A DNA stretch of 64,000 nucleotides from Owenia fusiformis (lineage: Eukaryota; Annelida; Polychaeta; Sabellida; Oweniidae). The stretch covers positions 39,397,936 to 39,461,935 of the forward strand of contig CAIIXF020000006.1 of the NCBI GenBank assembly GCA_903813345.2, read 5' to 3'. Positions 3,442 to 62,891 of the stretch are shown in pieces. Numbering within the stretch: position 1 is the first letter of the stretch; every line of letters starts with the position of its first letter. The notes below the pieces were generated by a model. That model saw nothing but the letters and a program-made list of their open reading frames with translations, was not told where the DNA came from and searched no databases. The position numbers and the translations under genes are program-made.

Positions 3442-3458
3442 AAGATGAGGGAGCAAAA

Positions 3459-5503
3459 AAATATTACCACTTATTATAAATCAAGATCAACAGGGCTATA
3501 TTAAAGGAAGATTTATTGGATATAATATAAGGCTAATAAATGACGTAATCAATTATGCTAATAAATATAGAAAAACATTAGATTCTGCTATTATTTTTGC
3601 AGATTTTTCAAAATGTTTTGATTGTTTGGAAATTGACTTCACTCTAGAAGCATTAAAGAAATTTAATTTTGGCAATAGTTTTATCCAGTGGATTAAAACT
3701 TTGTATAATGGAATACAAAGCTGTGTAGCTAATAATGGTCACTTATCACCATATTTTGATGTATCTCGGGGCATTCGGCAGGGATGTCCCATTTCTGCTT
3801 TGATTTATCTCATTGCAGCAGAAACAATGGCAATCAATATTAGAAATAATTCTAGAATCAATGGTATTAAAGTAAAAAACAAAGAAGTCAAAATATGTCA
3901 ACTTGCAGATGACACCACTCTCTTTGTTCATGGAAAAAACTCTATTAATATAGCTATTAAAGAAATACAGCGTTTTGGAACTGTTTCTGGTTTAGAGCTT
4001 AACTTAGAAAAAACAGAAGGTATAAAACTTGGTAACTTTAAAAATGATAATAATACTACATTTTGTAATATTTCCTGGAAACAGGAAGTAAAATCATTAG
4101 GTGTCTACTTTGGAATAGATCAAACTAAATTGCATGATCTTAATTGGAATAGTATAGCAGATAAAATGAGAAAGTCATTGTCTTTGTGGAAAAAACGCAA
4201 GATTACTCTTTATGGGAAAATAGTTATCATTAAAACACTTGCATTATCTAAACTGATGTATTTAGCAAAAAGCATTGACACACCAAATGAAACTTTTTTG
4301 AAAGAAATTACTTCAGAACTTTATTCATTTCTGTGGGATAGAAAAAGAGATAAAATTAAAAGATCTGTCTTAATTAATACTCTGTCTAAAGGTGGACTCT
4401 CAATGCCTGACTTAAAATCTAAATTCAGGGCCTTTAAAATTAAATGGATATTAGACATTGAGTATGGGAATAAACACGCAAGTTGGAATATTCTAGCAAG
4501 AGAGATATTAAGTAAAACTGGACTCCCAGATACTTTGATATTTAAATCTACTTATGGAAAACCAGAGAATATTTGTAATTTTAATATCTTGCCTCAATTT
4601 TACAAAGATTTACTCCATGCTTGGAGTATTCTTGGAGGCTCAGAATCCAAAATTGATAACATAACATTTGCAGAAATTAGACAAATGGTGATATGGCACA
4701 ATAAAGACATAACTTTCAATAACAAATGTTTGTATTTTGAAAACTGGATAAATTCAAATATATTATATGTTAATGATCTTATGTGTACCCAAGATGAAAT
4801 TCTTCATAAGCTTAAATCTAGGGTCAATTGGATGGCAGAATATATAACTGTTAAGCAATCTTTGCCATTTCAATATAGAGTTAAAATATTTAGTGAGGCA
4901 AGCAGATGTACATATGTTAATACAAATGTAAGATTAAGATTTTATGACAGTAAATTGAAGCATTATAGATTTTTGGATAAACATGCAAGTTCTAGAGACA
5001 TATATTCAATCTTGTTGGAACATATAGCAACTAAAACATATTTGGAATCATTTTGGATTAATCTTTGTGAAATTCAAAATAGTCAAATGCTGTTTCAACA
5101 GACTTGGATACTTTTAAAGCAATCCAAAAATAAAAAAGTGGCCAATTTTAAATACAAACTTTTACATTATATTTTACCATGCAAACAATTACTTCTAAGA
5201 TGGAAAATAAGTGTTAATGACAAGTGTGATATTTGTGGACAAGTAGAAGACTATAAACATTTGTTCTTTCAATGTCATAGAGTACTTAATGTAATAGACC
5301 AACTTGAAAATTATATTTTAGATCATTTTAAAATTGAATTAAGTTTGAAAAAGTATAAAACTCTTGTCTTTGGCTATAAGGTACAAGACACTAACTATAC
5401 TTATTTTAATGAATGGTTAAACAACTTATGGTACGTTATATTTGTAAACTATTGTAATAATGTTCAAGAATTGAAATTGCATCATTTTTCACAAATATTG
5501 TAA
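3459..5503 (+). pseudogene. L1-like ORF2 fragment: reverse transcriptase plus zinc-knuckle C-terminus
   Basis: The frame is open from the insertion boundary (codons from 3461) through the stop at 5503, about 680 codons, although the first ATG-like start is far downstream. Landmarks in order: NQDQQGYIKGR (RT fingers), FADFSKCFD (motif A), RQGCPISALIYL (motif B), LADDTTLFVHG (motif C with catalytic DD), and a C-terminal CDICGQ...H...C cluster matching the zf-RVT knuckle of L1/Tx1-type ORF2. No stops or frameshifts are seen, so the copy looks recent, but the truncation makes it non-autonomous. Confidence 0.9.
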
Positions 5504-6263: not shown

Positions 6264-9200
6264 TGATGTAGAAGAAGCTGCACTACTAGCTCTAGAGCCA
6301 GGTCTTCCCTTGCCTTTCTTACGCCTTGCTTTCAGCACCCTTGGTGAAATGGGAGTCAAATCTTTTTCTTGTTCTAGCTTTAACTCCTCAATCTTAGCGG
6401 CTACTGCAGCTTCCTAGAAATAAAATACAAAACTATTAATTAAAAAAATTCTGGTAATAAATTTTAATCCTTGAGTTGAAATTACAGTAAAACTTGTCGA
6501 CATGGAACACCTTTGGTACCTCTAAAAGTGTTCCAATAGGTGTTTCAATAGGTGTTTCACTTATACAGGTTCATTTAACATTAAGTCAGTTGGTCTTGGG
6601 ACTGAGGTTTAACTAACAGAGGTGTTCCACTTCTAGAGGTGATCCATTTTACAGGTTCCACTGCAAAGTTGGAGACAATAATGATATGTCAGCACTTCGG
6701 GTGGTGACATAAAAAAATAACTGACCTCAAAAACCTAAACTCTTAGATGGAATGCAATTTGTACAAGTACATGAATGAGATTATGCATTTGACAGAAAAA
6801 TTACCAAAGAATGGAAAATTCCCCTATTATCATGGAAATTTCCATTGAACTTACATCTGGGTGTTGGATGGAATACAATGTACATGTACTTGAATGAGAT
6901 TGTGCATTTGACATTGTCACATCTACTCCTGCAGTTGACAAACAAAATCAACTTAACTACAGGAAAATTACCAAGAATGGAAAATCCTGCTATTAGCATG
7001 GAGAATTACCAATAAATGGAAAATTTTGCAATTAGCAAAGAAAATTACAAATTACCAATCCATGGAAAAGTCCGCTATTAGTATGGAAATTTCCATTGAA
7101 CTTACATCTGGATGTTGCCTATCCACACTGAAGAACCTACAGACTGCCTTGTCATATAGGGAGACTTCATCATTCACCATTCCTACATAGGAGTCAACTA
7201 TCTCAAGCTGTTGACTGTGGAAGTCTTCATATCTAAAAAAATAAGATATATATAGTTAAGTCCCTGGAAAAACAATTTGTGAGGAGTTGAGCAGTCCCTG
7301 GCAGTCGTAATCTTACATGTTACATACACGTTTTCTTAAAAATGTCTAGCTTTAACTCTATGTTTTTGCTAATTTGAGGCTAATTGAGAGGGGGACAGTA
7401 ATCCCTTGAGTTCATTATATTTCACATTCTTTATACACATTCTCTTGAAAATACATGTATGTAGCTTAAACGACTTTTTTTCCAATTTGAGACCAGTTGA
7501 GAGGAGGAGAGTAATTACTAGCAATCATAATATTAAACATACATGTACATGTTCCCTATAGTACTTCCACTTAGGACAGTAATTACTAGTGATCATAATA
7601 TTAAACATACATGTGCATGTTCCCTTTAGTACTTCCACTTAGGACAGTAATTACTAGCGATCATAATATTAAACATACATGTGCATGTTCCCTATAGTAC
7701 TTCCACTTAGGACAGTAATTACTAGCGATCATAATATTAAACATACATGTACATGTTCCCTATAGTACTTCCACTTAGGACAGTAATTACTAGCGATCAT
7801 AATATTAAACATACATGTGCATGTTCCCTATAGTACTTCCACTTAGGACAGTAATTACTAGCAATCATAATATTAAACATACATGTAAATGTTCCCTATA
7901 GTACTTCCACTTAGGACAGTAATTACTAGCGATCATAATATTACACATACATGTGCATGTTCCCTTTAGTACTTCCACTTAGGACAGTAATTACTAGCAA
8001 TCATAATATTAAACATACATGTACATGTTCCCTATAGTACTTCCACTTAGGACAGTAATTACTAGCGATCATAATATTAAACATACATGTGCATGTTCCC
8101 TATAGTACTTCCACTTAGGACAGTAATTACTAGCGATCATAATATTAAACATACATGTACATGTTCCCTATAGTACTTCCACTTAGGACAGTAATTACTA
8201 GCGATCATAATATTACACATACATGTGCATGTTCCCTTTAGTACTTCCACTTAGGACAGTAATTACTAGCAATCATAATATTAAACATACATGTACATGT
8301 TCCCTATAGTACTTCCACTTAGGACAGTAATTACTAGCGATCATAATATTACACATACATGTGCATGTTCCCTTTAGTACTTCCACTTAGGACAGTAATT
8401 ACTAGCAATCATAATATTAAACATACATGTACATGTTCCCTATAGTACTTCCACTTAGGACAGTAATTACTAGTGATCATAATATTAAACATACATGTAC
8501 AATTGTACATGTTCCCTTTAGTACTTCCACTTAGGACAGTAATTACTAGCAATCATAATATTAAACATACATGTACATGTTCCCTATAGTACTTCCACTT
8601 ACCCTAGTTTGATTTTATTGAGCATGTCTAAAGCTTTGTTGAGACTGTATTGAAGAGTGTCCTGACTTCCATCTTGACGCATTCTGTCCATTATTATGTC
8701 CAAGTTGGCTTCCTTATCCTGGATAATAACAAGGTAATGTTATTATATATGAATATTAAGATTATTGACAAAGTTATTGTTTCATCGATAGTATTAATCT
8801 TGAGTATGAAGATATCTAAATATTATTGTTTAGGTCAAGTATTTATTGAATACAGTTTGTTTTTTGAGGAAGAAAGAGTGTTTCCTTTTGACAAAGTTTG
8901 TAAGATCCACCAGAAATAATATACAGTAAAACCGGAAGAATCCAAACAACACTGAGAACCTGGCAAAAGTATTTGTGTTGGCAAGTGTTCACATTTCATG
9001 AATTTTTAAAATTTTGGTCTTTTAAATAATGACTGATCAAAAATGGGACCAAAAAAGAGTTCATATCTAATTGAGAAGTCTCTAACCCTCCTCATACAAT
9101 TTAGTTATGCAACATACCTGATTATGATTATCGTGCAACCTGCGAGCATTTTCCAGTTTTTCCTGTAGATGGCGCTCTTGCTTTGCGAGCCCAATCTCAT

Positions 9201-12200
9201 GGACATCCCAGACATGTGCTGCCCCCTGGCTATATTTGAAAAGTGACTTTAACTCATTGACGATCTTATTTGTGTGTTCTTCTAGTTGTTGCTGTAATGA
9301 AAGTGAATTTTTACAGATATTTATTTTTCATATAATAAATATAGACTTTTCTACAGGGTCCTGTAGTTGGGCTCAGATGCATAATTAGCCACAATTTAAT
9401 AAATTTGATATGCAAACAAATTAAGATATGCATAAAAGTTTAGGTATCGTGACTAAACCTCTCCTGTAAATATATAAGAGAATTTTCTCTTGTTCAGATT
9501 TAAGTCAGTTTATTTCAGGGTTATATTTTACCTATTTATGTGCAATATAATAATCTAAAGCAGTGACACCAGTAATAAATTTTAATTTGTATGTGTACTC
9601 ACATCCATGGTTTCTAGGCTATCTTCGAATATTTTCTGCTGATTTCCAACGAGCGGTAGACATTTTTCTGTGATGATGTATGTAGCCTTGCCAAATGTAC
9701 ACACCTCTCTGTGTATTAGATCAGTCTAAACGAAAAAAATGAAAAATATTAGTTTATTCATGTATTTAAAATGAAGAGTTTGCTATATTTAATTAGTTTC
9801 TGAGTTTTTGTCGATAACCTTGACAATAACTCAAGTAAATACAACATATACAGTATTGTATATAAGTTTGATGTTTTATTCCATAAAAGGCTGAGTTTTG
9901 ACTCAATATCATTTGCACTCCTTTTTGAATAAAATATATATAAGTTAACTATACCTTGACTTCTTCAAGTTTAGCTAAACATGCCTGGCAGACTTCCTCA
10001 TAACTCCCATAGAGCTTATTAAGAAAGGTTTGGCCCAGTTGATCAAGTTGTTTACTTATAGCAGTCAGTTGCTGATTCCACTGGTATACTGATGTTTTAG
10101 TAGAGCCAGGAGGTCTCATATCCCTGAAAAATCAAAAATCAACAAATGCATGAACACGATACCATATCCCTACATAATTCAACAAGGCATTATAACAAGA
10201 AAATGTCATCACATTGTTGCAATTATGAAAGCGCAAGAAGCTGTTAAAAACGCTGAAACCAAAATGCTTGTGAAAAAGGTGGGTTGTTTATCACCTTATT
10301 TTACTCAATCATTAAAAATGCTTAATAAATGGTGGCTGTATTAACAACAAGGCATTAATATGACAAAATGTCACCACCATAAGTTATTGAAATTTTACAG
10401 ATGCTGAAGCCCCCAAAAAGTTGGAGACTACAGCAATATGTCATCACCATGGTGACATTAAAATAATGACAATGACAATGGAGCTATTATGTTAACACAC
10501 AAAAATTTTCCCAAGCTCATCAATTATGTATATTTAAATTCTAATTTCAAAATTGAGATAAAAATCTGATCCAAGTGCCTTTCTTTAAGAGACAAACCTT
10601 ACAGAATATAACCATTGTGACCCAAAATTTACCTGAGTGATTTAATGAGGTCCAGCCTCTGTACATTGATCTGCTCCTGCTGCTCCTTCATCTCCTTAAG
10701 GATAAGGTTAACTTCCCCAGGACTTGTAACATCTTCACTCTCCATATAGGCTCTAAAGCAAAATTGATATCATATAGACATGGTACGTTTTCTAGGTGTT
10801 GTATGATTTTTTTTGGCAATCCCATAACATTGAGAACAACACCCTACAATTGTGAACCATGCCCCTAAAATGTGCACTCATAAACTGTCTCTGTTCTGTT
10901 TTGAGATTTTTAATTAACTTCTTGACTACCCAGAGTGACGAGAAATCTCGTCACCTAAGAAATGATCTTGAAACCCAGAGTGACGAGATAATCTGTCACA
11001 GAAATGTTAAGGTTTTATTTGTGACTTGACTTCTCAGAATTTTTTTCAACCAGGTGCAATTTTTCAATGTTGGTAAACTTGGCGCTCGCTGTGCCAAAAG
11101 TTTGAGGAGATCATAGCGTGATCTCTGATCAATGCATGGTGGCACACATTCAATAACTTACATAAATGGATGAACCCATTCAAAACTTACATAGATGGAT
11201 GAACCCATTCAAAACTTACATAGATGGATGAACCCATTCAAAACTTACAATGATGGATGAACCCATTCAAAACTTACATAAATGGATGAACCCATTCAAA
11301 ACTTACATAGATGGATGAACCCATTCAAAACTTACATAAATGGATGAACCCATTCAAAACTTACATGAATTCAGCTACTGCCATATCAATGTGTATATTT
11401 TTCCAGTTTGAGATTTTTAATTAACTTCTTGACTACCCAGAGTGACGAGAAATCTCGTCACCTCAGAAATGATCTTGAAACCCAGAGTGACGAGATAATC
11501 TGTCACAGAAATTTTAAGGTTTTATTTGTGACTTGAATTACAAATTTCCAGTGATCTTCTCAGAATTTTTTTCAACCAGGTGCAATTTTTCAATGCTGGT
11601 AAACTTGGCGCTCGCTGTGCCAAAAGTTTGAGGAGATCATAGCGTGATCTCTGATCAATGCATGGTGGCACACATTCAATAACTTACATAAATGGATGAA
11701 CCCATTCAAAACTTACATAGATGGATGAACCCATTCAAAACTTACATAAATGGATGAACCCATTCAAAACTTACATAGATGGATGAACCCATTCAAAACT
11801 TACATTAATGGATGAACCCATTCAAAACTTACATAGATGGATGAACCCATTCAAAACTTACATTAATGGATGAACCCATTCAAAACTTACATAAATGGAT
11901 GAACCCATTCAAAACTTACATAAATGGGTTCATTCAAAACTTACATAAATGGATGAACCCATTCAAAACTTACATAGATGGATGAACCCATTCAAAACTT
12001 ACATAGATGGATGAACCCATTCAAAACTTACATAAATGGATGAACCCATTCAAAACTTACATAGATGGATGAACCCATTCAAAACTTACATAAATGGATG
12101 AACCCATTCAAAACTTACATGTATTCAGCTACTGCCATATCAATGTGTATATTTTTCCAGTCTTCCACACGTTTCTTCCATCGCGTATGTTGTACCTTTT

Positions 12201-15200
12201 CCCTCTCAATATCAGCCATCATTAGTCTGGCGTACAGATCGCTGTAGGCCCTGCGGTTACTCAGCACTGCCTGGTTAATCAACTACAAACAGATATATTT
12301 CCTTTTATATATTTTTCAAATTTCTATACCCAGGATTACAGAGGCTAGCATTAAATACAGGATTTTGGGCATTTTTTGGGCCAGAAGTGAAAAAATTGAA
12401 CCCCCCTTAAATTTTTGGAAAAGTGAACCATTTTGTACAGTCCAGGCTATATAGTTCAGTACCTGTGTATATCATAAATGATAACAAATCATAGAAAATA
12501 AGCCTTGAATCATTCTAATAAAGTATATTTGTTTATGCATACCTGTGAATCTTTAGCAAGTAGTTTATGAAGGTGAGGGGGCATCAGATGAGCAATCTTC
12601 TCTAGAGTATGATTCATTCTAATAAAGTTTATATTGAATATGCATACCTGTGAATCTTTATCAAGTAGTTTATGAAGGTGAGGGGGCATTAGATGAGCAA
12701 TCTTCTCTAGAGTATGATTCATTCTAATAAAGTTTATATTGAATATGCATACCTGTGAATCTTTATCAAGTAGTTTATGAAGGTGAGGGACCATTAGATG
12801 AGCAATCTTCTCTAAAGTATCTGCATATGACTGGAACACCTCTTTCACCTATAAAAGTATAGAAACTTACAAATATAGCAGCTTTCTCCCTAGGATTTTT
12901 TGTCAAGGCGGTGCAAAATTCTCATTTTCACAATTCAGACCAAAATTGGTCATAAAATGCCCATTTTTCATGGTTTTTCTCATTTTCAAGTGGGTGCAAA
13001 TAGATTTTCAGGTGGGTACAAGCCTTTTTTAAAAATCTCAGGTTGGTGCTACACCCACTTGCTTTAATGCTGGGGAGATCACTGCATAGATTATAGAGGA
13101 TATCCTATGATTTATGAGTGATATGATTTTTATCCACGAATGGATATGATATCTGCACGAGCGAGCGTAGTGAGAGAGTGCAGATATCAATATCCATGAG
13201 TGGATTAATGAGTGCTGCTTTTAACAACCCCTATTCGGGGTCATAGCCACAATAACCTGTAAATATGTTACATTGATTTTAATAAAAAAAGGATTCTATC
13301 AAGATTCTATCAGAGACATAATATAAAAGGCTGGCTTTGAATGTAGGGTATAAGTACCAAGAATATAAGGTATTTGACACTAGGGCATAACATTTAAGAC
13401 CCTAGAAAGTAAGGTACAAGACCTTGGAACATAAGAAAAATGTTACTAGAACCTCGTACTAAAGTATGAGACCCAGGAACATAAGGTGAAAGGCTTTGTA
13501 ACACAAGGTATGATGTTTCTGGCAACTGATGTATTTGCAAGGTATAAGAATTCAGTGCAAGATCAGACTCAATAATCTAAGATCAGACTCAATAATCTAA
13601 GATCAGACTCAATAATCTACCCCCAGACCTACAATCCTACATTGGTTCCTACTATAACCAGCTGATTCTGGAGCTCGGCAGAGTTTGAACAACAAGTCAT
13701 ACAATTCTTTGGATAAAAATTGCATTATTTATAAGATTTCTATGAAGTCTTCGCAGTTTAATTCGTCAACCATTTTTCAAAAAATGTGAATTAAACTGAA
13801 ATAAGAATCAAAGGAGTTTACCAGGTCCATTCTATCTTCCTCTATCTGCTGTAGCTGTTCATCCATGTGTTCTATCCAACTCTGTCTAATTGAAGACTCT
13901 TTTTGCACACACTCCCATAGTTCTTCCAACTCAGACATATTGTACCACACGATATCCTGGAAAAAAGAACAACCATAAACATAGAGCTAGGAGGCAGGAG
14001 AGGCTTTTGCCTCACCAAAATAGCATAGCTAGCCTTGAGGCAGACGAGGCTTTTGCCTCACCAATGCTTTACTGAAGTTATATTTTTTGAGAAAATTAGG
14101 TCCCATAGAAGTATACTATCTGGCCTTTTGGTTAATGTTTTGCAATCAGAAACAGTGCCATGTAGTACTGTTTCAAACAAATAGTACCGAACAGCCATAA
14201 TACCAGGATTTCAAAGTGTGAATTGGAGGTGTATATTCATGAAATACTCATCATTCAAAACATCGACACTTAGCTTAGGCATGATATATTAAATTCCAGC
14301 CAATCAGAAGACAGTATTTCAAAAAACTCACATTCTTGAAATAACATTAAATGTGATAATTATTGCTAACCTCATCGGCATCTATTTTTGAGAGAAAGCC
14401 CTCAAGGAGCTTGTCATTCTGTGTGATGTGCCCTATCAGTTCATCCCCTGCTTCAGCAATACGAGGCTCCAATTCCTAAAGAAAGACAAAAACAGTGTAT
14501 TATACCAATATTATAAAATATGTAAAACACATTAACATTGTGGACATTTTGAATTCATGTACATTTGCATGAGTATAAAGTCACGAATTCAGGATGCCTC
14601 CAATTTCAACATATTTAATTAATTATTCCGATTGTTTACACAACAAGGTATTGATTGCTAATTATATTTAATGCAGAGAAAGAAATACAGGAGCTGTGAA
14701 GTATGTAAACCTGAATGATTATCGCCAATATTTTTCTATTTTTTTTATATGCACGCTTATTGGAGTCTCTTTGTACCCTTTTAAATATCACTTTGCATTA
14801 GAGAGAATATGGTATCTACAAAAAAACTTACTGAGCTTATTATGTTCAGTTCCTGGTGCATATCTTCCACTGCGGCCTCATGTCTGTAATCAGAATTATT
14901 AATGTATAAAAACTAGAAAAATAAAAAGTTCTTAAATTTGGTACTCATAGATATATTTATCTTTACTTCAATTTCTTAAAAAAGCGTTTAAAACAATGAG
15001 TACTCATATATTACCTTTGTATCACTGACTAATTCACAATTCATGACTAAAAAATAATCTTTAGTATCTAATTTCAATCAACTGTTCAACTGTAAAATAA
15101 TCATAAAACAAGGCATTGACCATGCAAAATGTCACCACTTCAAGCTGCCATTAGTTACAGACATGCTGACAAAAATTTGGAGACTGTATAACAATATGTC

Positions 15201-16420
15201 ACCACTTCAGTAGTGACATCATAACAATAAATGGACCCAGCTACATGATTGTACCTTTCTTTTCTGCTTTCTGCAATTCTCTCTATGATATCAGACCCAG
15301 TCTTAGCTGGAGCTGTAAAAAAGGATTTCATATATAGGTAAATTATGCATTAGGTTAATAACATGCACGAGCTAAGTAATTTTACTTTTTTTCAAAACGT
15401 AATAATACCAGTTATAATCTTGTATCATACACTTTTTAAAATAGGAAAAATGAAGTCATTAGTGATAACTAGTCTTAAAAACTCATTAACAAGGGAGACA
15501 TATAAAGGAATGAACCGTCCAGTTGGCTGACATGGTGAAAAGGTTTTTGGAAAATGAAGCAAAAATAGGAGCAATGGTGTAAATTACAAGCATAAACCTC
15601 AGGATTGGTTTGGATAATGGCAAAACCATCTATAAATGCTTTTGGGCGATTGAAGGGATATACATTATGGAACTTTATAATGAAATAAAAAATGTTGAAG
15701 AAATAAAAAAATGGGAAATATTTTCCATACCAACTACATCAGGGAGACCACGGACCTCCCTACTTGCGACATTTCTAGTTGGCTGCTTCATTTCATGCGC
15801 AACCATTTGTTGTAGTTGCTTGTGAACCACAGGGTTCTCTGGGTTCGATTCATTTGGGAAACTTTCAGCCCATGTTTGTTGACGACTGGTTAGAAGGCCT
15901 GCTCCTGTTTCTGACCTCCCAGTATTCACGAGGGGAGTTTTTGATGGAATTACATTGCTCTTGCTTCTCCGTACATCTTTCGATTCTTCTAATGTTTTAA
16001 CAAGTTGAACCTACAATATGAAAGAAAGACACGTATTTGTACTTTTAATAGATAGACCATATTTTTCAGTCAGATTATAAGGGAACAATACATACAATGA
16101 TAGGACCACTCTCCCTCACATTTACTAATTTATTCTAAAATGTATCACATCTTGAATTGTATGAGATAGAGTAAATTATGTGTGCATGTTCTTTCATATT
16201 GAATAGAGTCTATGTGATCATGAGTACATTTAGATTTTAAGAGTCGTTTTACAGTATTCTCAGAAATTTCTTCCATGTATGTACATGTACTGTACTTTTA
16301 GCAGATAAATGGGTACATTGAATATAAACTTTAAAACATTACCTGAGCATCAAATATTTGTCTGTAGACCTTTCCGCTGGGAACAAGTCGAACAGGATTA
16401 TTCAATTCTGTATTTGACAT
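6264..16420 (-). CDS. CCDC180: CCDC180-like coiled-coil cilium/flagellum protein, 5' portion (15 coding exons)
   Basis: Exons in transcript order: 16343-16420 (ATG), 15731-16010, 15255-15312, 14832-14883, 14371-14475, 13822-13956, 12753-12848, 12119-12282, 10633-10752, 9955-10123, 9603-9725, 9118-9291, 8603-8718, 7106-7232, 6264-6413. All introns are GT..AG and the phases chain, giving 649 codons; the rest lies left of the window (human CCDC180 is about 1,700 residues). The N-terminus VPSGKVYRQIFDAQVQLVK matches the family start. Later landmarks are RRAYSDLYARLM, FKYSQGAAHVWDVHE and GYEDFHSQQLEIVDSYVGMV, all in helical, coiled-coil-rich sequence. The last visible exon is basic and Ser-rich (RRKKGKGRPGSRASSAASS). 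The family is associated with cilia and sperm flagella; that function here is inferred by homology. Introns are rich in repeats, several beginning at splice donors. A noncoding first exon upstream is possible. Confidence 0.9.
6485..6663. mobile_element. pogo/Tigger-like MITE in a CCDC180 intron
   Basis: Ends CAGTAAAACTTGT (6485) and ACAGGTTCCACTG (to 6663) are imperfect inverted copies (CAGTRRAACYTGT), preceded by TA on the left. The interior repeats GGTGTTCCACTT/AGGTGTTTCACTT. This end sequence is typical of pogo/Tigger-type nonautonomous elements. The right TA is not conserved, so the boundary is approximate. Confidence 0.6.
6664..6722. repeat. Dispersed repeat fragment (TTGGAGACA...ATATGTCA...GTGACAT)
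   Basis: Shares TTGGAGAC(N)AATATGTCA-CACTT and GGTGACATNAAAATAA with fuller copies at about 10360-10475 and 15107-15235. Family unknown; possibly a short MITE, since the GGTGACAT and ATGTCACC pieces are inverted. Confidence 0.45.
6781..7105. repeat. Local tandem repeats duplicating the CCDC180 exon end and donor at 7106
   Basis: Units of about 40 bp built from GAAAATTACCAANGAATGGAAAAT and CTATTANCATGGAAATTTCC recur near 6797, 6960, 7005 and 7060. The unit at 6841-6870 also contains TTGAACTTACATCTGGGTGTTG. That is a copy of the true exon/intron junction at 7096-7120 (TTGAACTTACATCTGGATGTTG), so a decoy minus-strand donor (GTAAGT) plus about 10 bp of exon has been duplicated into the intron. 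Confidence 0.75.
7539..8602. repeat. 68-bp minisatellite, ~15 copies, abutting a CCDC180 splice donor
   Basis: The unit runs GTACTTCCACTTAGGACAG, then AATTACTAGCGATCATAATA and ACATACATGTRCATGTTCCC; for example the same base recurs at 7561 and 7629. Copies differ at a few sites (GTGATC/GCGATC/GCAATC, CTATA/CTTTA). On the minus strand the array starts at the donor of exon 8603-8718: the true junction reads CTTCCACTTACCCTAG and each repeat carries CTTCCACTTAGG. The repeat has therefore grown out of the 5' splice site, but its copies have lost the GT. Confidence 0.92.
10360..10475. repeat. Dispersed repeat copy in a CCDC180 intron
   Basis: Reads CAAGGCATTAATATGACAAAATGTCACCACC, then TTGGAGACTACAGCAATATG and GGTGACATTAAAATAA. 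A second copy at 15107-15235 has the same order of blocks. TGTCACCA and TGGTGACA are inverted, suggesting a short hairpin-forming MITE. Confidence 0.55.
11150..11364. repeat. 29-bp minisatellite, ~7 copies
   Basis: Unit AACTTACATAGATGGATGAA plus CCCATTCAA. Every unit holds ACTTACAT, so on the minus strand (the sense strand of CCDC180) each is a consensus donor ATGTAAGT. Confidence 0.9.
11680..12118. repeat. 29-bp minisatellite, ~15 copies, ending at a true splice donor
   Basis: Same unit as 11150-11364. The final ACTTACAT at 12113-12120 is the real donor of exon 12119-12282, so the exon's own 5' splice site is the first unit of the array. Variants read ACATAAATGG, ACATAGATGG and ACATTAATGG. 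Confidence 0.92.
12541..12752. repeat. 105-bp tandem duplication of a CCDC180 exon end, in frame
   Basis: Two extra copies of a 105-bp unit follow exon 12753-12848 (minus strand). Each includes the exon tail encoding TLEKIAHLMPPHLHKLLDKD, the donor GTATGC and 39 bp of intron. The period is a multiple of three and no copy has a stop, so the frame stays open from 12848 to 12510 through all three copies. Each copy also has CTCTAG before AGAAGATTGC that could act as an acceptor. Confidence 0.88.
12893..13085. mobile_element. MITE copy A (CTCCCCAGGATTAAAGCAAGTGGG family)
   Basis: Inverted relative to copy B at 44490-44672; both contain AAGTGGGTGCA, TTGCACCCACTTGAAAATGAG and end in TGGGGAGATCACTG. 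Terminal CTCCC(C/T)AGGATT and AATNCTGGGGAGA are short inverted repeats. No coding capacity. Confidence 0.65.
13131..13207. repeat. Foldback hairpin, ~28-bp arms
   Basis: The left arm TATCCACGAATGGATATGAT then ATCTGCAC is mirrored by GTGCAGATATCAATATCCAT then GAGTGGATTA. The loop is GAGCGAGCGTAGTGAGAGA. It is a short palindromic insertion in a CCDC180 intron, similar in organisation to the hairpins at 19247, 40149 and 42713. Confidence 0.8.
15107..15235. repeat. Dispersed repeat, second full copy
   Basis: Matches 10360-10475 in order: CAAGGCATTGACCATGCAAA, ATGTCACCACTT, TTGGAGACTGTATAACAATA, GTAGTGACATCATAACAATAA. Lies in the CCDC180 intron between exons 14832-14883 and 15255-15312. Confidence 0.55.
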
Positions 16421-20375: not shown

Positions 20376-20437
20376 TATATTTATTTTTTCAGGAGTTACA
20401 GTATTTTAATTTCTAATTTTGTAACTTGATATTCCAG

Positions 20438-21346
20438 ATGGCAGTTCCAGTTGTGAGGAAGACTAAGCTACAAAACGCAACATTGAAGGCCCCGGGGATC
20501 TCGTATGACATGTGTCACATGAACGAACGACTAATCATAGTAATACCTGGGAATGGAGTCGCAAGGCTTTATGATGACAACCTTAATCCTGCGGAAGGAC
20601 GCTACGAAACAGGAGTCAAGTCACCAATGAAATACACGTTTAACGTACCTAATTCACAACTGAATTATGTGGCCCAAATAAGCAATGGAAAAGTCATATT
20701 CGCTACTGACAACAAGAAAAAACTTTTGATTGTGAAAAACGTACAGGATGGCGCCAATGCTGACGAGGGTAGAGTGGAGGTCACGCTAAACTTCCTGAAA
20801 GATCCCAGAGGTTTAGCTGTGTTTCCAGGTGGAACAATTGATGACTTCAGGCTTGCTATATGTGACTGCGTGGAAAACTGTGTATTTGTAATACGTTTTG
20901 TAAATGGTATCTATGATGGTGGGGTTCCTATGGTCATTGGAAAGGGAGAGCTCGCTTCACCTAATTATGTTGCAGTTCAACAACTTGGAAATGAAGTAAG
21001 GCTGGTTGTTACCGATTTGATGAGAAAAGCTCTATTTGTTTTCCATGAGCAAGGTGCCATACGTAATACGGTTTATTCCTGTGATGGAGTAGATCTAGAC
21101 CGACCTCATGGTATTTGTATCGATAGGGGTGGCAGCATAATATTTGCAGATAGTGGTAACAACCGCGTTGTTCAGCTGAATCCAGATTGTACCTTCAACC
21201 GTGTTCTGCTCAACAAAGACAACGCACCTGACATGAACGAGCCCTGCGGCATTATGATAAAGCAGGAGACAGGCGAAGTAATGGTAGGTGATGCAAAATG
21301 TGATATTTTCACTGTTCAGTACAGAGAAGCAAATGAAAATCTATAA
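20438..21346 (+). CDS. NHL-repeat beta-propeller protein
   Basis: 302 codons, ATG at 20438 directly after a good acceptor (TTGATATTCCAG), so an upstream noncoding or short exon is likely; the frame has no earlier ATG. The protein is built of NHL-like blades: LKDPRGLAVFPGG, LASPNYVAVQQLG, LDRPHGICIDRGGSIIFADS followed by GNNRVVQLN, and MNEPCGIMIKQETGEVMVGD. There is no RING, B-box or signal peptide in this exon. NHL propellers bind protein or RNA in TRIM-NHL proteins; here the partner is unknown. It is distinct from the CARD+NHL gene at 34570-36024, to which it is only distantly similar. The substitution pattern and open frame suggest a working gene. Confidence 0.8.
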   Translation: MAVPVVRKTKLQNATLKAPGISYDMCHMNERLIIVIPGNGVARLYDDNLNPAEGRYETGVKSPMKYTFNVPNSQLNYVAQISNGKVIFATDNKKKLLIVKNVQDGANADEGRVEVTLNFLKDPRGLAVFPGGTIDDFRLAICDCVENCVFVIRFVNGIYDGGVPMVIGKGELASPNYVAVQQLGNEVRLVVTDLMRKALFVFHEQGAIRNTVYSCDGVDLDRPHGICIDRGGSIIFADSGNNRVVQLNPDCTFNRVLLNKDNAPDMNEPCGIMIKQETGEVMVGDAKCDIFTVQYREANENL

Positions 21347-27220: not shown

Positions 27221-28268
27221 CAGGGTGGTCCAAAAATGTCCATATTTTTATTTTTGTTATATCTGCTGATATGTTGGAAATATCCATAGATTATATATCA
27301 TTATATAGATTATGATTCAAAAAATACGAATGGCTATTGGTGACTTCATGATGGTTTCCATATCACATGTATCATGAGGTAGTAACAGTCGAAAACAAGA
27401 TTTTACTATATGTTTTGGCCATATTGAATAGTATCACATTGCTTAATTAATCAAAACGTTTAGGCTATTACATATAGAAAAAGTACTGGAGTTGATAGTT
27501 TGTTAGTCATTTTATAGCTCTAAAGTAATCATGTAACCTATTTCTTATGCATTGTAGTTCGTTACAAATGGTCCAAAAGAGGATTTCACGAGACAGATGG
27601 ACAAATCAATGTTAACTAAAATGGCTGAAAAAAAAAAACGGACATAATATTTTGCCAATTTTTTGTAACAAAATTATTTCATACAGCTACTTTTTACAGT
27701 AACATGGCTTTTTACAATGCAGGACAGCTGGAATTATTTGTAAAGCTAGGAAATGGGCCAAAAGTGAATTTCGCGAGACAAGAATGACGACCATTTTGAA
27801 AATAGGCGAGCTTTTGAACCAAGAGTCATAGGAGAGTTTTTTGTATTGATGTTGAACAAAATTAACTTAAAACGGGAATCCTATCGACAGAGGGTTTAAG
27901 GCAAATGGTCCAAAAGTGGATTTTTGCGAGACAGATGGACAAATCAATGTTAACTAAAATGGCTGAAAATAAGAAAATGAATATAATTTTTGCTGATTTT
28001 TCGTAAAAAAATTATTTCATACATCTACTCTTTACATTGACATGGATTTATACAATGTAGGACACTTGAAATTATTTGTAAAGCTAGGAAATGGGTCAAA
28101 AGTGAATTTCACGAGACAAAAATGGCAGCCATTTTGAAAATAGACGAGCTTTTGAACCAGGAGTCATAGGGGAGTTTTCTGTATTGATGTTGTACAGAAA
28201 TTACTTAAAACAGGAATCCTATCGACAGAGGTTTTAAAACGTGCCACTATTGTTGACGGACGGACGGA

Positions 28269-28316
<48 letters not shown>

Positions 28317-28710
28317 CGGACGGACGGACGGACGGACGGACGGACGGACAGACAGACAGACGGACAAGTGAGTGATTGTAAAAGCTCACCATGTGAGCTA
28401 ATAATCTTACAGAACTAATCCTTTTGCTGTTGTGGTAAATAATTTGATGCATAACAGCAACAGACGACGGAGTGTCAAGATGATATGAACAGGAGAAAAG
28501 AAATTATAAAACATAATTGTGACGCTGCTCCACATACCCGCGACTCCTGTTACCATAACAGCCATAACTTTTTTATTTTGAAACAATTTTTCATGACAGT
28601 TACAGGATAAATTGTTACAATGTCATTCTACAATCTGTATCAATTTCATCTCACAACAGGTAAATTTAATCAAATTAGAGCATTTGTATCTTTACTTTCC
28701 GGACACCCTG
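27221..28710. mobile_element. 1.49-kb mariner-type nonautonomous element with TA duplication
   Basis: TA-CAGGGTGGTCC at 27219 and GGACACCCTG-TA ending 28712 give inverted ends and a TA target duplication, as for Tc1/mariner elements. The interior has a direct repeat of about 337 bp (AAATGGTCCAAAAG at 27566 and 27903, each ending AATCCTATCGACAGAGG) and an (ACGC/ACGG)n microsatellite. No transposase frame. It might be a composite that captured non-transposon DNA. Confidence 0.78.
28254..28370. repeat. (ACGG)n/(ACGC)n/(ACAG)n compound microsatellite
   Basis: Uninterrupted tetranucleotides: ACGG, then about 14 ACGC, then ACGG and ACAG. It produces artefactual Arg/Val/Ser-rich open frames on the minus strand. 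A related stretch GGACAGACGGACGAGTGAGTG occurs at 38399-38420. Confidence 0.95.
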
Positions 28711-31269: not shown

Positions 31270-33169
31270 AAGGCGCGTCTATGTGATCTCCCTCGACTAT
31301 GGGTGAGAAAGATGGTGACTGCAATCTTTGTTCACGATTGTGATAACGATGGCCACTTTAGTTATGAAGATTCAATGACACTGGCAGACAATATTGTAAA
31401 GCTAGGTAATGTGCTCAGATTTAGTGGCATAGTATTAGTATATGCTTCATTAAGCTACGTTCACACCGACGGCGCTTTGCTTGATGGCGTTTAATGCGGC
31501 GTGCGAAGCGGCTTTGCACGTTGCATTAAAGCGCCATCAAAGCGCCGTTGGTGTGAACGTAGCTTAACAGGTTCCAACTAACCAATCACTTAATCATTAG
31601 CTACAATGGCTACACTGGCTGGAGAGCAATTTCATTGGCTCAAAATGCGTGTCAATAATAGTTTACATGTGTTTGTGTTTAAGGCTTAGTTCACACCAAC
31701 GGCGCTTTGATGGCGCTTTAAAGCAACGTGCGAAGCCGCTTTGCACGCCATATTAAAGCGCCACCAAAGCGCCGTTGATGCTTTAGAGCGCCGCGCAAAG
31801 TCGCTTTGCACGCTGCTATGCAGCGCCATCAAAGCGCCGTTGATGCGAACTTAGCTTTACCATCACATTCCAGGCTGTTTAGAAGGCAGAGCAGCTGACA
31901 AAGTATATGAATTCTGGGGGAATGCTATTGCTGAAACTGAAAAAGCAGTCCCTAATTTTCACTATGAAAAGTCATTTGTAGAACAAGTAAATCATGCGTG
32001 GGCAATGGCAGATGATCCAGAAAAGCTGAAGATCTGGATTACGTTTTGGCAAAAACAATTTCAGGTAAATTGTATTCATAAACGTAATAAGATCTATATA
32101 GCAACTAGATAACAACAGCGCCAAGGCATAGCAAACCCCATCGAAAGGCCATGGTTGTTTTTTGGAAAATATGTCCGCCAATTTAGAGCCAAATTATCAT
32201 AAGACAGTATTGCTATCCACAGTTTCGTATATATTATTTCAACAAAATAGCCGCATTTACAATACTTCCAGTTATAGCTGCAATGTAAAACAACAAAATG
32301 GATGAAAGAGTAATATGCACTTAAGTAGTCACATATAAAATGTCAACAAAATCGCTACTCTTCTAGTTAAAGTAGAAAAAAAGATGACAAACATAAACCG
32401 TCGGCCAAACCATCATCGTCAATGGTTTTCATCGTCGGCAAACATTTGGTTCATATATTATATATGACTACTTAGAAGCATATGACACTTTCTTATATTG
32501 GCTAGTACAGCGAAGAAATGGTCGAGCTAGCTATAGTAAAAAGTCAAATAACACACGTTAACATGTTTGCTATTTTGTAAAATGACCACCAACTAGACAA
32601 AATGGCATTAGAATGTGTGTCCTACTTACAAGTAATCACATATCAACCATGAACAAAATCGCCTCAGTACTTTTGTGATCAAAACATATTTATTATTTTA
32701 CACTTTTATATATTGCACCTAAAGAGCTGTAAAATTGACACTAAAAATGCAAACATTTTGAAACCAGAAGCCATTTGAAAATCGACCTTCGATCAGAACT
32801 TAAGTATAGAATAATTTCTGATACTAAAATGGTTCGGGGTTTCTTCGTCAAATTGTATTTACTAGGTGCACGGACACCGGCTACCCTCAATCTGAAAAGA
32901 TAATTTATACAGTATGTCATTGTCAGAGATAACTCATTTTACAGGTTTTGGACTTCAACTCTGATGGAGCCATCAGCTTTGAAGAGTACTTGATCTTCTG
33001 GAAAGCCTATAACCTTGATCCAAGTCTAGCAAGATTGCAGTTTGATTACATTGATATAGATCATGACGGGAAAATCTCAGAAAAGGAGTTTGTTGATGCT
33101 TTCATTGATTATTTCTGCAACCATAATGATAACGGAAATAGATCATATGGACCGTTGCTTGACTTTTAG
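31270..33169 (+). CDS. Sarcoplasmic calcium-binding-protein-like EF-hand protein (three exons, 5' end missing)
   Basis: Exons 31270-31405, 31874-32064 and 32945-33169 have GT/AG junctions and chained phases (0, 1, 0), giving 183 residues. The first visible exon follows an acceptor (CAATATACAG) and has no convincing start, so one short upstream exon is missing; an internal ATG at 31312 is less likely. EF-hand loops: DCDNDGHFSYED, DFNSDGAISFEE and DIDHDGKISEKE, all with acidic residues at 1, 3 and 12. The helical spacer with VYEFWGNAI and WITFWQKQF and the total length fit the sarcoplasmic calcium-binding protein/calexcitin group of invertebrate cytosolic Ca2+ buffers. The first intron carries two GC-rich hairpins. 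Confidence 0.85.
31450..31567. mobile_element. GC-rich palindromic MITE, AAAGCGCCGTTGGTGTGAAC family, copy 1
   Basis: TTAAGCTACGTTCACACCGA ... GGCGCTTTG is mirrored by CAAAGCGCCGTTGGTGTGAA ... CGTAGCTTAA. GC-rich against an AT-rich background. Lies in the intron between EF-hand exons 31270-31405 and 31874-32064. Confidence 0.85.
31683..31858. mobile_element. GC-rich palindromic MITE, copy 2
   Basis: Same family as 31450-31567: starts GCTTAGTTCACACCAACGGC, contains several GGCGCTTT/AAAGCGCC blocks (CATCAAAGCGCCGTTGATG twice) and ends GCGAACTTAGCTT. An extra internal duplication makes it longer. Confidence 0.82.
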
Positions 33170-34569: not shown

Positions 34570-36024
34570 TTAGTCCATATATTTCAGTACAAAGAGTTTT
34601 ACTGGACCACACGTGCATATTACAAGGTCCCCCTGTCTGTTCAGAGTTATTGCACTTGGCTTCTTTAACCCATCGCTTTCACTCATCAGGATCTTCTTGA
34701 AGTTGTCCTCTGGAGATAGGAGATGGATGTCATGATATGTTTGGTAGGCTGTAATGATATGTCCTACACTGTCTATACACACACTGCTAGGAATCTTGTT
34801 GAAACAGCCTATACCTTTATAGCATGATAGTTGATCCCCCTGCCTATTGATGATCTTTACAGAGTTATCGCCAAAGTCTGTGATTATGATATTATTCTGG
34901 TTGCTAACTCCAATACTACCTGTTTTATACGTTTCATGGCCACTGGGAGTTGTATGTACCACCTTTCCTGTATTGATGTCGATGAAGGATATCGTTTTCT
35001 TCCAATGATCTGCTAGGATAAGCTCTTGTTGTTGGTTGAATGCCATTGCCCCTGGGTCTGGGATAGTAGGGGATGTTATGTCTCTTAGATGTTCTCCTCT
35101 AATGTCAAACAACTTCACTGAACCAGCTATATCAGGAGCTTTACATGATACAGCCACTACATCTGTGCTAGTTGCCACATCCTTAGCATATCGTTCCACC
35201 AACTTCTTCTTTACATTCACTTGATCATCACATAGCAGGGCTTTTCTGCTGATAGGGTTGACCCACCCACTTATAACATAATCACCAGTTGAAACGACTG
35301 CTATTGACATTACGTATTTAAAAATGGTTTCATTTATAGGTGTATTTTGGAGGGTTTGGGGCACTTCTAGGACTCTCCTTCTAGGTAATGCGAATGTCTC
35401 TCTCTGATAGGACGAGACGGGTAGCTCTTGTTGAGGAACAACTGACAGAGTTGCCCCCATAGACCTGGGCGATGGTGGAGCGACTGTTGACTTTATGGGA
35501 GCGTCAACTTGGTCTACACTTGTTTCAGACATGTTGTGTGACAGAGTTGTTGTTTCATCGAGATTACACTTGACCATCAATTGATGTGCCATATCTCTTA
35601 TCGTCTTCAACTTTGATTTGGTGATTTCAAGTTCATCACCTTCTATCGTTTTTATGCCAGTGGGAGCAATGTCATTCGCCAGTCCAAGAATAGCCTTTGC
35701 TTGATCAAGAGTTTCTTCACAAAGTCGCTTTTGGATCTCCGTCGCCAAGAAATCATGATGCTCATACAATGCATCAACAAATGAATTGAATGCTTTTATA
35801 GGACGGCTTTCCAGTTTTCGTAAAAGCGCTCTGCATCTCTCAGAAGATGTTTTCTCTGACATGACTTCTTCAATCATTGTACTTGTTAAAATAGAATCCC
35901 GATGGCAAACATCTATTATATCTCGGACTTCCAGATTTGGAACTATATCAGGATGACATCTTTGTAATGTTCGTTTATGTACATCGGTGAGAGGAGCATC
36001 TTCTTTGACATACTTTTCAGCCAT
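34570..36024 (-). CDS. CARD plus NHL beta-propeller protein
   Basis: 484 codons in one exon, ATG at 36024; the next in-frame sequence upstream is non-coding (TTGTTATAG precedes), so a 5' noncoding exon is possible. Residues ~10-100 form a death-fold domain of CARD type: HPDIVPNLEVRDIIDVCHRD, MSEKTSSERCRALLRKLESR, then PIKAFNSFVDALYEHHDFLA. A linker (~150-225, Ser/Pro-rich) follows. Residues ~230-484 are NHL/beta-propeller blades, e.g. IPDPGAMAFNQQQELILADH, TGSIGVSNQNNIIITDFGDN, IPSSVCIDSVGHIITAY and LKKPSAITLNRQGDLVICT. CARDs nucleate apoptotic or innate immune assemblies and NHL propellers bind ligands, so a sensor/adaptor role is inferred, not shown. No RING or B-box. A pseudogene copy lies at 25727-26460. 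Confidence 0.85.
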   Translation of the reverse strand: MAEKYVKEDAPLTDVHKRTLQRCHPDIVPNLEVRDIIDVCHRDSILTSTMIEEVMSEKTSSERCRALLRKLESRPIKAFNSFVDALYEHHDFLATEIQKRLCEETLDQAKAILGLANDIAPTGIKTIEGDELEITKSKLKTIRDMAHQLMVKCNLDETTTLSHNMSETSVDQVDAPIKSTVAPPSPRSMGATLSVVPQQELPVSSYQRETFALPRRRVLEVPQTLQNTPINETIFKYVMSIAVVSTGDYVISGWVNPISRKALLCDDQVNVKKKLVERYAKDVATSTDVVAVSCKAPDIAGSVKLFDIRGEHLRDITSPTIPDPGAMAFNQQQELILADHWKKTISFIDINTGKVVHTTPSGHETYKTGSIGVSNQNNIIITDFGDNSVKIINRQGDQLSCYKGIGCFNKIPSSVCIDSVGHIITAYQTYHDIHLLSPEDNFKKILMSESDGLKKPSAITLNRQGDLVICTCGPVKLFVLKYMD

Positions 36025-36519
36025 TTTCTATAACAATCATCAATAAACATTATTATGCAATATGCATCAGTCTTAATTAGTCTAAGTTCTCCACTTGGCT
36101 GAAATATTCAACTTAGTGCTGAACGTTATATGTGTTCTAGTGAATATCTTTTTATTGTTTAAATCTAAGCTAGGAAGAGTATTGTTAAAAGAATTGACCT
36201 ATGGACCTTGGCAGTGGAAACTGTTTGTGTATGTTTTTAGCCAAGATTGCTATAAATTATTGTTTGATTTTCACATTCATTTTTAAAAGTGAATCCACAT
36301 ATAGCTAGGCAAGGTGTGTCCGATTCCAGCCAATCCGAATATAGTATTTCATATCACTGCACTATCAATAACGAATTTGATGTGTGGTTGTCAAGGTGAA
36401 AAAAGGACTCTATGCATTGAAATTGATGCTAAGCCAACTTGACCCTTGCAAAAAGTTTCAATTAAAATATTTTCTTATAGTGATGTGTGACATGATAGAA
36501 AATATTTTGCAATGTGTGA
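36025..36519. other. Intergenic / 5' region of the CARD+NHL gene
   Basis: No coding frame of note. Any noncoding first exon of the minus-strand CARD+NHL gene would fall here or further right; I cannot locate it. Confidence 0.4.
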
Positions 36520-42945: not shown

Positions 42946-45900
42946 TTATTGTATATTTCCCGTTTCCATGTCAACCTTATGAGGTGTAGATGACCCAAGT
43001 GGTTGCCATGGAAACCCTGATGATCCAGCGTTTTCAATAATCCTTGGATTAAGTCTCGCACCATGTTGCGGAACTACGCCTCTTATATTAGAATCATAAG
43101 ACGCCACTTTCGCCTCACATGTATTTACAATATCTGTATTTGTATTGATCATACCAAAGGAACGACCTAAAATGCGAGGTTTTAGGTATTTATCTTGTGG
43201 TTGATGCGATACTGAGAAATAGTTCTCTTTTTCTTCTTCAAATAGACTGTCTAGGCCAGTGTCTGAATTTGATGACATAGGGAGACCCCCCATCTGTGTA
43301 GTGAGGTCTGTGTGATGGATTCCCTCTTCATCTTGACTGTATTGTTCACTAGATTGAGAAAACTCCTGGGAGGTATTCCCATTTACTGGCTTTTGATTGG
43401 TCAAACATGTGAACTGACCTATCTCCTGATTGGCTGAATTTGAAAATTGACCCGTATCCTGATTGGTCATTTGCAGACTACATGTCTGATATCCAGTGTC
43501 CTGATTGGTCAGATTTGTGTGGCTAGCTGTATCCTGATTGGTGCATTCCATATCTGTGTTTGAGAACTCTTTGATGGTTGAAAGGCCACATGGTTTTTGT
43601 TGGGTATCTGAAGTTGAACACCTTGAGGTAGATTCATGTTCTTCATCCATATCCATCTGGACTGCATATCTGGGGTGTTCACCTTCATCTGTGAATGTAT
43701 TATTCGTGGCAGACATTTTCTCAATGCCAGGGATATCTGGAATATTCAAGAACATAAATTTGTTACTTGAGATTGTGAAATAAAAATTCTGCATAAATTG
43801 TAAATTTAGTACTAAGTGATTCATAAATCATGTATGTTCAGAGTTGGGAGGGACTTGAAGGACAGTTGTTTTGGGCACGAGTCATTCATAGAATGCATGG
43901 TTTTAGATACATATAGGAACATTCAAGAACATTTTGTTACTTGAAATTGTGAGATATAATTTCTGCATTGCTCAATATATAAATCAGTTGTATATTCAGG
44001 GGTGTGTAGGATTTGAAGGACAGTTGTTTTTTGGGGTACAAGTCTTTCATATCATATCAAATGTCAAATTCAAAAGCATCAAAATAAACTTTGCCAAAAC
44101 AAACTATTCAATACAATCAACAAGATAAATACCAGCGAACATAATGAGCCTCTCATATCTGAACATAAAACTATTTTTATTCTATAATAGTTCAATTCAA
44201 TTATATGAAATTAGAAATGTTTGAATAAAAATGTCTCTGTTTGAGTAAATTTAACAGGTAACCATGACAACCAGAGATTAGTACCACAAAATTCTAAAAG
44301 GGAAATATGAAATTAAGTTATCACTGAACTTATGATATAAAAATTAAGTGCAACTAATATAAAACATGGATAAAAAATAATTAAAAATAATATTGTTATT
44401 TCCAAGTTTTGTGCTATATCTCCAGATTTGTTTTCTCCCAATCATAAAAATTAGGTGTCCAATTAGATTCACCATGAGTATGGTACAATGGTCTCCCCAG
44501 GATTAAAGCAAGTGGGTGCAGCACCCACCTGAAATTTTACAAACAGGCTTGCACCCACTTGAAAATGAGAAAAACCTTTAATAATGGGCATATTTTGACA
44601 AATTTCAGTGTGAATTGTGAAAATGAGAACTTTGCACCTAGTCTATTTGAAAAAAATCCTGGGGAGATCACTGATGGTAGCTCTTATAGATAAGTCCAAA
44701 GTGAGTACTCACCTATTATGTTGATTCTGTTCATAGTAATGACAATTTATATTCATTATTTGTACTATGTACTTTCAAACAATATGTTTTTATTTAAGAA
44801 ATTATTCTTGCTCACTACTTTTGCATAATGTGGGGGTGCTTTAGAACTAAAAGGAGACATGATATGTACATAATGTATAATATAAATTTCAATGTATATA
44901 TTAAAACCAACAACAAAGATACATTTGCAAGGAAATCTTTAACTTCTGTTTCTAATAAGTTCAAAAATTGATTATTCCATTCACTGTATTTCATTTATAT
45001 TCACGTGTTGGATTGTGTCCAGCTATCAACATTGTGGAAATTAAAGTTGATTTTGTTATGGTTCCGCCCTCCCATAACTAAATTTGAAAATGTTAATTTG
45101 TTGATTTGATTTTCACAATCTTGCTTCATGAAGCGTCTGATGCAGTAAATGAGCGTGGGAACCAACAATACGCTTTCATTTCTAAAGTCACCATTACTAA
45201 TGAAATTATAATCATATACCCCCCCAACAAAATTAACTTCATTCTTCCGTAACTGTTGATAATTGATAACCTCCCTTAATTCATGAAAAATCAAATAAGT
45301 ATAAAACATAAACTGACCTCCGTTATCCTCATCCTTATCCTCAACCGTGAAGCTAAACTTTATCGGAGAAAGTTTGGGACTGTCTGGTCTCTGGTTCTTG
45401 TGGTCACCACCAGAGGGAGTGCACTCAAAGTTTTTACTAAGGCCTGTAGGGATTGGTGGAATTGCAAATACATCTTCACTGCCATCTATAAGCAAACATA
45501 CAGTAAATTAATTCATTTATCATTTGTAACAGTACCTTGAAAATACAATCTGTCATCCTCCGATCAAAGGGCTTCAAAAATCCAGAATATATTCTTACCC
45601 CGATTAAGAACTCGCAATATGATTGGCTGTCGCAACACTGCGACAGAAACCATGTATAAGTCATTGCGCATAATTAGATCACGTGATTCAGTTTAATCGG
45701 GCGCTTCCAAATTGGTTATAGCAGGGGGAAGGAGGTACGGATTCTGGATACCTGCTTAGTAGGATGACAATCTGTAAGATGTTTCATTTGCCATCAGCCG
45801 ACATCTTCAGCATTACCACATACTGTAAATTGCTTTAGTTTGATGGCTGTTTTAATTTAGCGGATTGATAGAAACTGCCGAATTAAGTCTCCGCAGATTT

Positions 45901-62638: not shown

Positions 62639-62891
62639 TTCTATATGTAAGTGGATTTCCTGAAAGAAATATAGGAAAAAAAGTTCAGTGAAAAAATGTA
62701 CATGAGAAAAATCGAAGAAGTCATTCAAATATGAGTCAATTTTAGATAATTTTCTCAATATTTACATGTTATTTTGGAGATGGTACAGACACAGTGGTTT
62801 TAAAGCATAGGTTGGACTGAAACGTAGACAGGGCTGCCCCCACTCTGATGAGTTGGCCTATCAGAGTTTTGACTTATACATCAGAATACCT

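Follow-up and report, generated by a model that had tools for sequence, protein, structure and literature searches.

Tandem duplications cross the 5' splice site (the donor) of four exons in a 64,000-nucleotide stretch of the genome of the annelid Owenia fusiformis (contig CAIIXF020000006.1, positions 39,397,936 to 39,461,935; hereafter the window, whose own numbering is used). Three of them, at exons 12753-12848, 12119-12282 and 7106-7232, lie in a CCDC180-like gene, and the fourth, at donor 56732, lies in an EF-hand-like gene. All four are mirages, an already known kind of repeat, because tandem copies cross the boundary and exon sequence is carried into the intron. Mirages are minisatellite-like tandem duplications across exon-intron boundaries, described in the lancelet Adh, globin, troponin C and PGBD5 genes, in passages that give units of about 10-160 bp and report regular splicing (PMC3087553, PMC3902484). 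The anatomy of the duplications and their donor-only contacts were seen directly in the window, the exon ends being placed by homology. We consider that ordinary tandem duplication combined with a filter exerted by splicing, without any targeting of donors, probably explains the donor-only placement.

The eleven exons found for the CCDC180-like gene (Table 1) have consistent phases, and the spliced frame is open throughout. The product matched the Pfam family DUF4455 with E = 2.7e-110, residues 94-497 falling on profile positions 62-465 (404 residues on 404 profile positions, no net gap). Compared to the solved CCDC180 chain 9ijj (E = 8.2e-64), a one-residue gap was found near residue 92, past which the alignment is gapless up to the end of exon 7106-7232. 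Solved FAP76 (7n6g) was matched as well, with E = 4.7e-22. Because the spliced frame is open and the homology runs without net gap, the predicted donors of exons 13822 to 8603 (exons are named below by their lower coordinate) are supported to the residue; that of exon 7106, also predicted, is backed less firmly. The four CCDC180 exon ends on which the initial annotation relied therefore hold. Exon 15738-16010 has a weak, uncertain donor, which was still counted among the 21 donors analysed below.

At exon 12753, the 105-bp unit, present in three copies as first described, is made of about 68 bp of exon tail and 37 bp of intron, and the array contains three identical CAG/GTATGC donors (the slash marks the junction). 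At exon 12119, the first unit of the 29-bp minisatellite opens at the last two exonic bases, AT/GTAAGT. About 15 units, each with a donor motif, had been reported there; we count 15.6, and GTAAGT is found in every unit, 16 times in the main block (real donor included) and 8 times in a second block, at 11147-11370. This second block is part of a ~507-bp duplication, with copies at 10900 and 11407 (spacing 507), which also brings along ~42 bp of exon tail, copied up to a junction near 11405-11410. The two 29-bp blocks are unequal in copy number, in the one haplotype at hand. At exon 7106, the donor copy proposed earlier is confirmed: a 69-bp block, of which 12 bp are exonic, is present twice (7049-7117 and 6798-6866) with 88% identity, the second copy lying 251 bp downstream in the transcript. 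At donor 56732, 18 bp of exon tail are copied in the 42-bp array; three units read GATGGTAAGTAG, and one reads GATGATAAGTAG, without GT (changed to AT). The units of 29, 42 and 105 bp are within the published range for mirages, and the 251- and 507-bp spacings are outside it. Donor copies are equal to the real donor at 12753 and 7106, and in 2 of the 3 extra copies at 56732, so that the real donor, if used, would win by order.

Two of the six sites pointed out in the initial annotation were reclassified. It had stated that all four CCDC180 introns copy their own donor, which is the case at 12753, 12119 and 7106; at exon 8603, the 68-bp array announced with about 15 units does exist, in 16 copies, and the donor is not copied. 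The array starts at intron +2, with no GT. The motif TAAGTGG occurs 16 times, as GTAAGTGG at the real donor alone and as CCTAAGTGG at the 15 other sites; the later units read CC/TAAGT, with neither exon base nor donor GT copied. The reading as a donor copy was rejected, as 15 of the 15 later units are without the real donor GT. The array also contains 16 copies of an unrelated donor-like CAT/GTATGT. It is a plain intronic minisatellite adjoining the donor, not a mirage. The second case is one of the two donors reported for an unrelated gene, our EF-hand-like gene. Donor 56732 stands, with four 42-bp units across it, and donor 56016 does not. There, a 12-bp direct repeat, GAGGTAAGATTT, is present at 56014 and 56148, and the donor recurs only there, once; the sequence between the repeats has an 81% identical relative at 56403-56500, and 14-bp repeats begin at intron +7. 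Tandem duplication of the donor was set aside for an insertion between the 12-bp direct repeats. The site has the appearance of an insertion that duplicated its target; a simple duplication of 12 bp, in two copies, might also account for it.

To measure where duplications lie relative to boundaries, each position was scored by how well its 24-mer agreed with the most similar 24-mer on the same strand, up to 1,300 bp away. Positions with a 20/24 match were called duplicated (8.8% of window positions). Boundaries were 21 donors and 22 acceptors, one Bora acceptor without AG having been removed from 23. Just inside the intron, duplicated 24-mers were found at 6 of the 21 donors and at none of the 22 acceptors (Fisher 0.009); the donor count had P 0.017 by circular shifts, in which clustering is kept, and no shift equalled the donor-minus-acceptor difference, to four decimals. 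Stricter cut-offs of 21 and 22 of 24 left 5 of 21 donors (shift P 0.037 and 0.026; Fisher 0.021). Duplications spanning the boundary, a small sample, were found at 4 of 21 donors versus 0 of 22 acceptors (Fisher 0.048, shift P 0.14). Duplicated positions make up 33% of the intron bases of CCDC180. Position-based shifts in this gene alone, with 10 donors and that of exon 6264 off the edge, yielded P = 0.29 just inside the intron and 0.69 spanning.

Duplications were also counted as events. The window contains 55 duplicated segments, two pieces at exon 7106 being merged, and 38 are in annotated introns. Six of these 38 are at a donor and none at an acceptor (P = 0.043 for the donor count, 0.009 for the difference). 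Tighter exon-overlap limits gave lower P; removal of 56016 and its relative raised them, up to 0.09 (count) and 0.02 (difference) in the loosest version. In CCDC180 alone, 4 of 8 segments touch a donor (P 0.0004 to 0.022), and outside it 2 of 30 (P 0.06 to 0.45). Nine complexes of at least 100 bp were obtained by merging three SCP-like intron pieces (unmerged, ten segments): 6 are within 10 bp of a donor and 8 within 50, the numbers for acceptors being 0 and 1. Under symmetric placement, this had P 5e-6 to 0.002, and up to 0.0085 without 56016; for the donor count, P was 2.5e-5 to 0.0017, and 0.0002 to 0.0085 without 56016. For the five non-CCDC180 complexes alone, P was 0.19 with the 10-bp limit and 0.001 with the 50-bp limit. 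One of the contacts at 50 bp, in the first found intron of the SCP-like gene, is near-certain by chance because the complex almost fills the intron (local repeats 31452-31861, 46 bp from the donor and 12 from the acceptor). The 50-bp distance was picked after the data were seen, and every test postdates the noticing of the pattern. In all event or complex versions that include CCDC180, the donor-minus-acceptor P is at most 0.022; without CCDC180 it is 0.04 to 0.19. The array at 58293-58528 is a donor-side case additional to the six sites. We take these results to mean that duplications in this window lean towards the donor side; a splicing filter would account for part of that lean.

Such a filter may operate as follows. 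A donor needs about six intronic bases, an acceptor a branch point and a polypyrimidine tract. The duplications themselves would come from unequal exchange and ordinary tandem duplication, in an animal genome rich in repeats. Among the donors of an array, the outermost marks the real exon end; it is the first to be transcribed and would be the one used, in line with published reporter assays on a large scale: of two consensus 5' splice sites the first was predominantly used, and tandem 3' splice sites showed no preference, in the passages cited (PMC6783452). With this first-donor preference, a donor duplication would leave a normal mRNA, and an acceptor duplication would often give a wrong one. 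Later donor copies would stay intronic, and donor-side duplications would survive, the mRNA being unchanged. Duplications spanning the acceptor, or arrays entering the branch point or polypyrimidine tract, would be lost more often, since an extra acceptor would also get used. The homology to DUF4455 and to the solved relatives fits first-donor use at the duplicated donors. The splicing filter predicts the direction of the observed asymmetry, and survival bias could account for it without seeding.

Several observations weigh against this explanation. The tandem donors of the reporter passages were 2-77 nt apart (PMC6783452), versus spacings of 29 to 251 nt here. Acceptor-side mirages exist in lancelets, according to the passages cited, which means that the filter is not absolute (PMC3087553). 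The longer form of exon 12753, ending at the last donor, scores 154 bits in total versus 145 against DUF4455, but in two stretches. Finally, we set up a filter-like null, in which no array may enter the final 50 bp of the intron, and a donor overhang of 70 or 12 bp is allowed. Having 6 of 9 complexes within 10 bp of a donor then had P = 0.03 with the 70-bp overhang (0.12 without 56016) and 0.0006 with the 12-bp overhang (0.006 without 56016); for 8 of 9 within 50 bp, P was ≤0.0005 (≤0.002 without 56016). Some donor preference may be left unexplained by the filter.

One rival concerns exon 12753 itself, whose array could be coding, the later in-frame donors being used in some transcripts and adding 35 or 70 residues to CCDC180. 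We consider this unlikely. It is true that 105 bp correspond to 35 codons per unit, in frame and stop-free across three copies with three identical donors, and that human boundary repeats can stay in the transcript, as the cited passages report (PMC2812944). Yet the 70 residues that use of the last donor would add are found neither in the DUF4455 profile nor in the two solved relatives, which have no insertion there, and the longer form breaks the DUF4455 match in two despite its slightly higher total. Moreover, 12 open intronic codons are not rare, by estimate rather than computation, and the proposal applies to one of the six sites.

The initial annotation had suggested a process that seeds duplications at donors. 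A transcription-linked R-loop, a nick or U1-linked pausing would start duplications at 5' splice sites, and the arrays would then expand. Donor placement is indeed above chance in most, though not all, of our tests; seeding itself did not find confirmation, and we regard it as improbable. Arguments for it are that 6 of the 9 complexes touch a donor and 0 of 9 an acceptor, that half of the CCDC180 events (4 of 8) are at donors, P 0.0004 to 0.022, that two separate duplication levels exist at the 12119 donor, and that Bora has an extra array in a 13-kb intron, at 25 bp from the donor. Against it, the lancelet mirages of the cited passages occur at both boundaries (PMC3087553, PMC3902484), 4 of the 6 affected donors belong to a gene with 33% of its intron bases duplicated, the position-based test in that gene gave P = 0.29, and the pattern was noticed ahead of testing. 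Base composition of exon ends and units gave no support for an R-loop signature: mean GC skew in the 50 exonic bases before the donor is 0.06 for the 6 affected donors versus 0.11 for the 15 others, and units have 29-35% GC with G runs never above 3; the 42-bp unit, though, contains 12 G and no C. It is likewise doubtful that 5' splice sites are favoured duplication starts in this genome through a transcription- or splicing-linked lesion, with donor minisatellites that keep forming and feed exon extension as at 12753.

No more credit can be given to chance combined with the choice of examples, i.e. a gene full of repeats in which the arrays end at donors by coincidence, a pattern picked out only afterwards. 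This is what the spanning test (P = 0.14), the position-based tests in CCDC180 (0.29 just inside, 0.69 spanning), the 2 of 30 segments outside CCDC180 (0.06 to 0.45), and the combination of a 70-bp overhang with a 50-bp acceptor keep-out and removal of 56016 (0.12) would suggest. The donor-minus-acceptor difference speaks against it, with P ≤0.022 in all event versions that include CCDC180 (0.04 to 0.19 without).

Finally, selection for decoy donors, also invoked earlier, would retain arrays because their additional U1 sites contribute to the definition or regulation of the intron; we consider it very improbable. In its favour, all 24 units of the two 29-bp blocks retain GTAAGT, and donor-like sites number 41 in sense versus 4 in antisense in the four CCDC180 tandem arrays having any. 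But the 29-bp unit is constant almost throughout, the donor motif not being special, so that homogenisation suffices, and one of the five tandem cases has no donor copy (15 of 15 later 68-bp units without the real GT), while one of four 42-bp units lost its GT. Selection on the donor motif, which cannot be separated from array homogenisation, was not retained.

Compared to known systems, the amphioxus mirages (Adh3, globins BflGb6 and BflGb9, troponin C, PGBD5) are alike in their many copies with splice signals, and differ in that they occur at both intron ends, acceptor side included, in the cited passages (PMC3087553, PMC3902484), whereas 6 of 6 contacts are donor-side here. In the open-licence literature searched, boundary minisatellites named mirages were found only in the lancelet papers. 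Human internal tandem repeats described by De Grassi and Ciccarelli in 2009 also lie at exon-intron boundaries, and are retained in the transcript or spliced from it; they come from a comparison of human paralogs and are tied to novel introns, and the passages cited contain no donor preference (PMC2812944). C. elegans minisatellites are found near alternative exons, with no boundary-crossing arrays in the passages cited (PMC4039745). In the potato RdRp gene, a tandem duplication over the 3' end of intron 1 crosses one intron boundary, as here, and led to intron gain under the Rogers model, again in the passages cited (PMC4974935). That duplication makes a new intron, and none is evident here as far as the comparison of the product with DUF4455 goes, in which no net insertion was seen. 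The human IFI6 (6-16) gene has a donor minisatellite that provides several donors at one exon end, with alternative donor use; the copies found here, potential donors by their sequence, resemble it.

With several repeats across boundaries, all of them donor-side, this 64-kb stretch offers a concrete test of whether splicing shapes minisatellite survival, and makes it a testable question whether donor-only placement reflects survival or seeding. First-come donor choice predicts that, genome-wide, such repeats lie more often at donors than at acceptors; a preference for donors already present among young duplications would instead imply mutagenesis linked to transcription at splice sites. The copies offer consensus donors, which also puts gene prediction at risk.

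Table 1. Coordinates of the duplications and genes discussed, in window positions.
Feature	Position	Strand	Remarks
105 bp x3 array	12506-12820	-	crosses donor of exon 12753-12848
29-bp minisatellite, x15.6	11673-12120	-	crosses donor of exon 12119-12282
Further copy from ~507-bp duplication	10900-11406	-	intron block, 29-bp array and exon-tail copy
First copy, donor block of exon 7106-7232	7049-7117	-	12 bp of exon, donor and intron start
Second copy, donor block of exon 7106-7232	6798-6866	-	within intron
42 bp x4 array	56715-56888	+	crosses donor 56732 of EF-hand-like gene
68 bp x16 array	7505-8601	-	starts at intron +2 of exon 8603-8718
Insertion at donor 56016	56014-56159	+	between 12-bp direct repeats
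Further array	58293-58528	-	25 bp inside donor (exon end 58554) of Bora exon, 13-kb intron
CCDC180-like gene	6264-16010	-	11 exons; no gene end found
CCDC180 exons, first six found	15738-16010, 13822-13956, 12753-12848, 12119-12282, 10633-10752, 9955-10123	-	
CCDC180 exons, next five found	9603-9725, 9118-9291, 8603-8718, 7106-7232, 6264-6413	-	
Bora	42946-62659	-	model; BORA_N match for one exon
EF-hand-like gene	55780-57173 (55.8-57.2 kb)	+	antisense within Bora intron
SCP-like EF-hand gene	31.3-33.2 kb		Pfam match

Gene models other than CCDC180 are based on open frames and splice motifs, with Pfam matches also for Bora and the SCP-like gene. The EF-hand-like gene has a SPARC calcium-binding match below the curated cut-off and, judged by eye, a hydrophobic N-terminus. 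The best solved relative of the SCP-like protein is 1q80, an annelid protein. The window is AT-rich, with 30-37% GC per 4 kb and a mean of about 33.5%; lancelet GC is higher, ~41%. No tRNA was found in the window (ARAGORN, bacterial code), nor any Rfam match at gathering score, and a phage search using the array gave no match, as expected.

Elsewhere in the window, two long reverse-transcriptase open reading frames (890-2140 and 3449-5500, both on the + strand) are retroelement-like, with RVT_1 in both and zf-RVT in the second. The first starts where an array ends (1-916); the 50-bp units of this array are themselves grouped into periods of 196 and 296 bp. Long uninterrupted open reading frames were also found at 20417-21343 (+), with an NHL repeat, and at 34573-36027 (-), with a CARD domain and a weak NHL match. 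At 27565-28365, a 338-bp tandem duplication is followed by a run of the tetranucleotide GACG, in ~28 copies.

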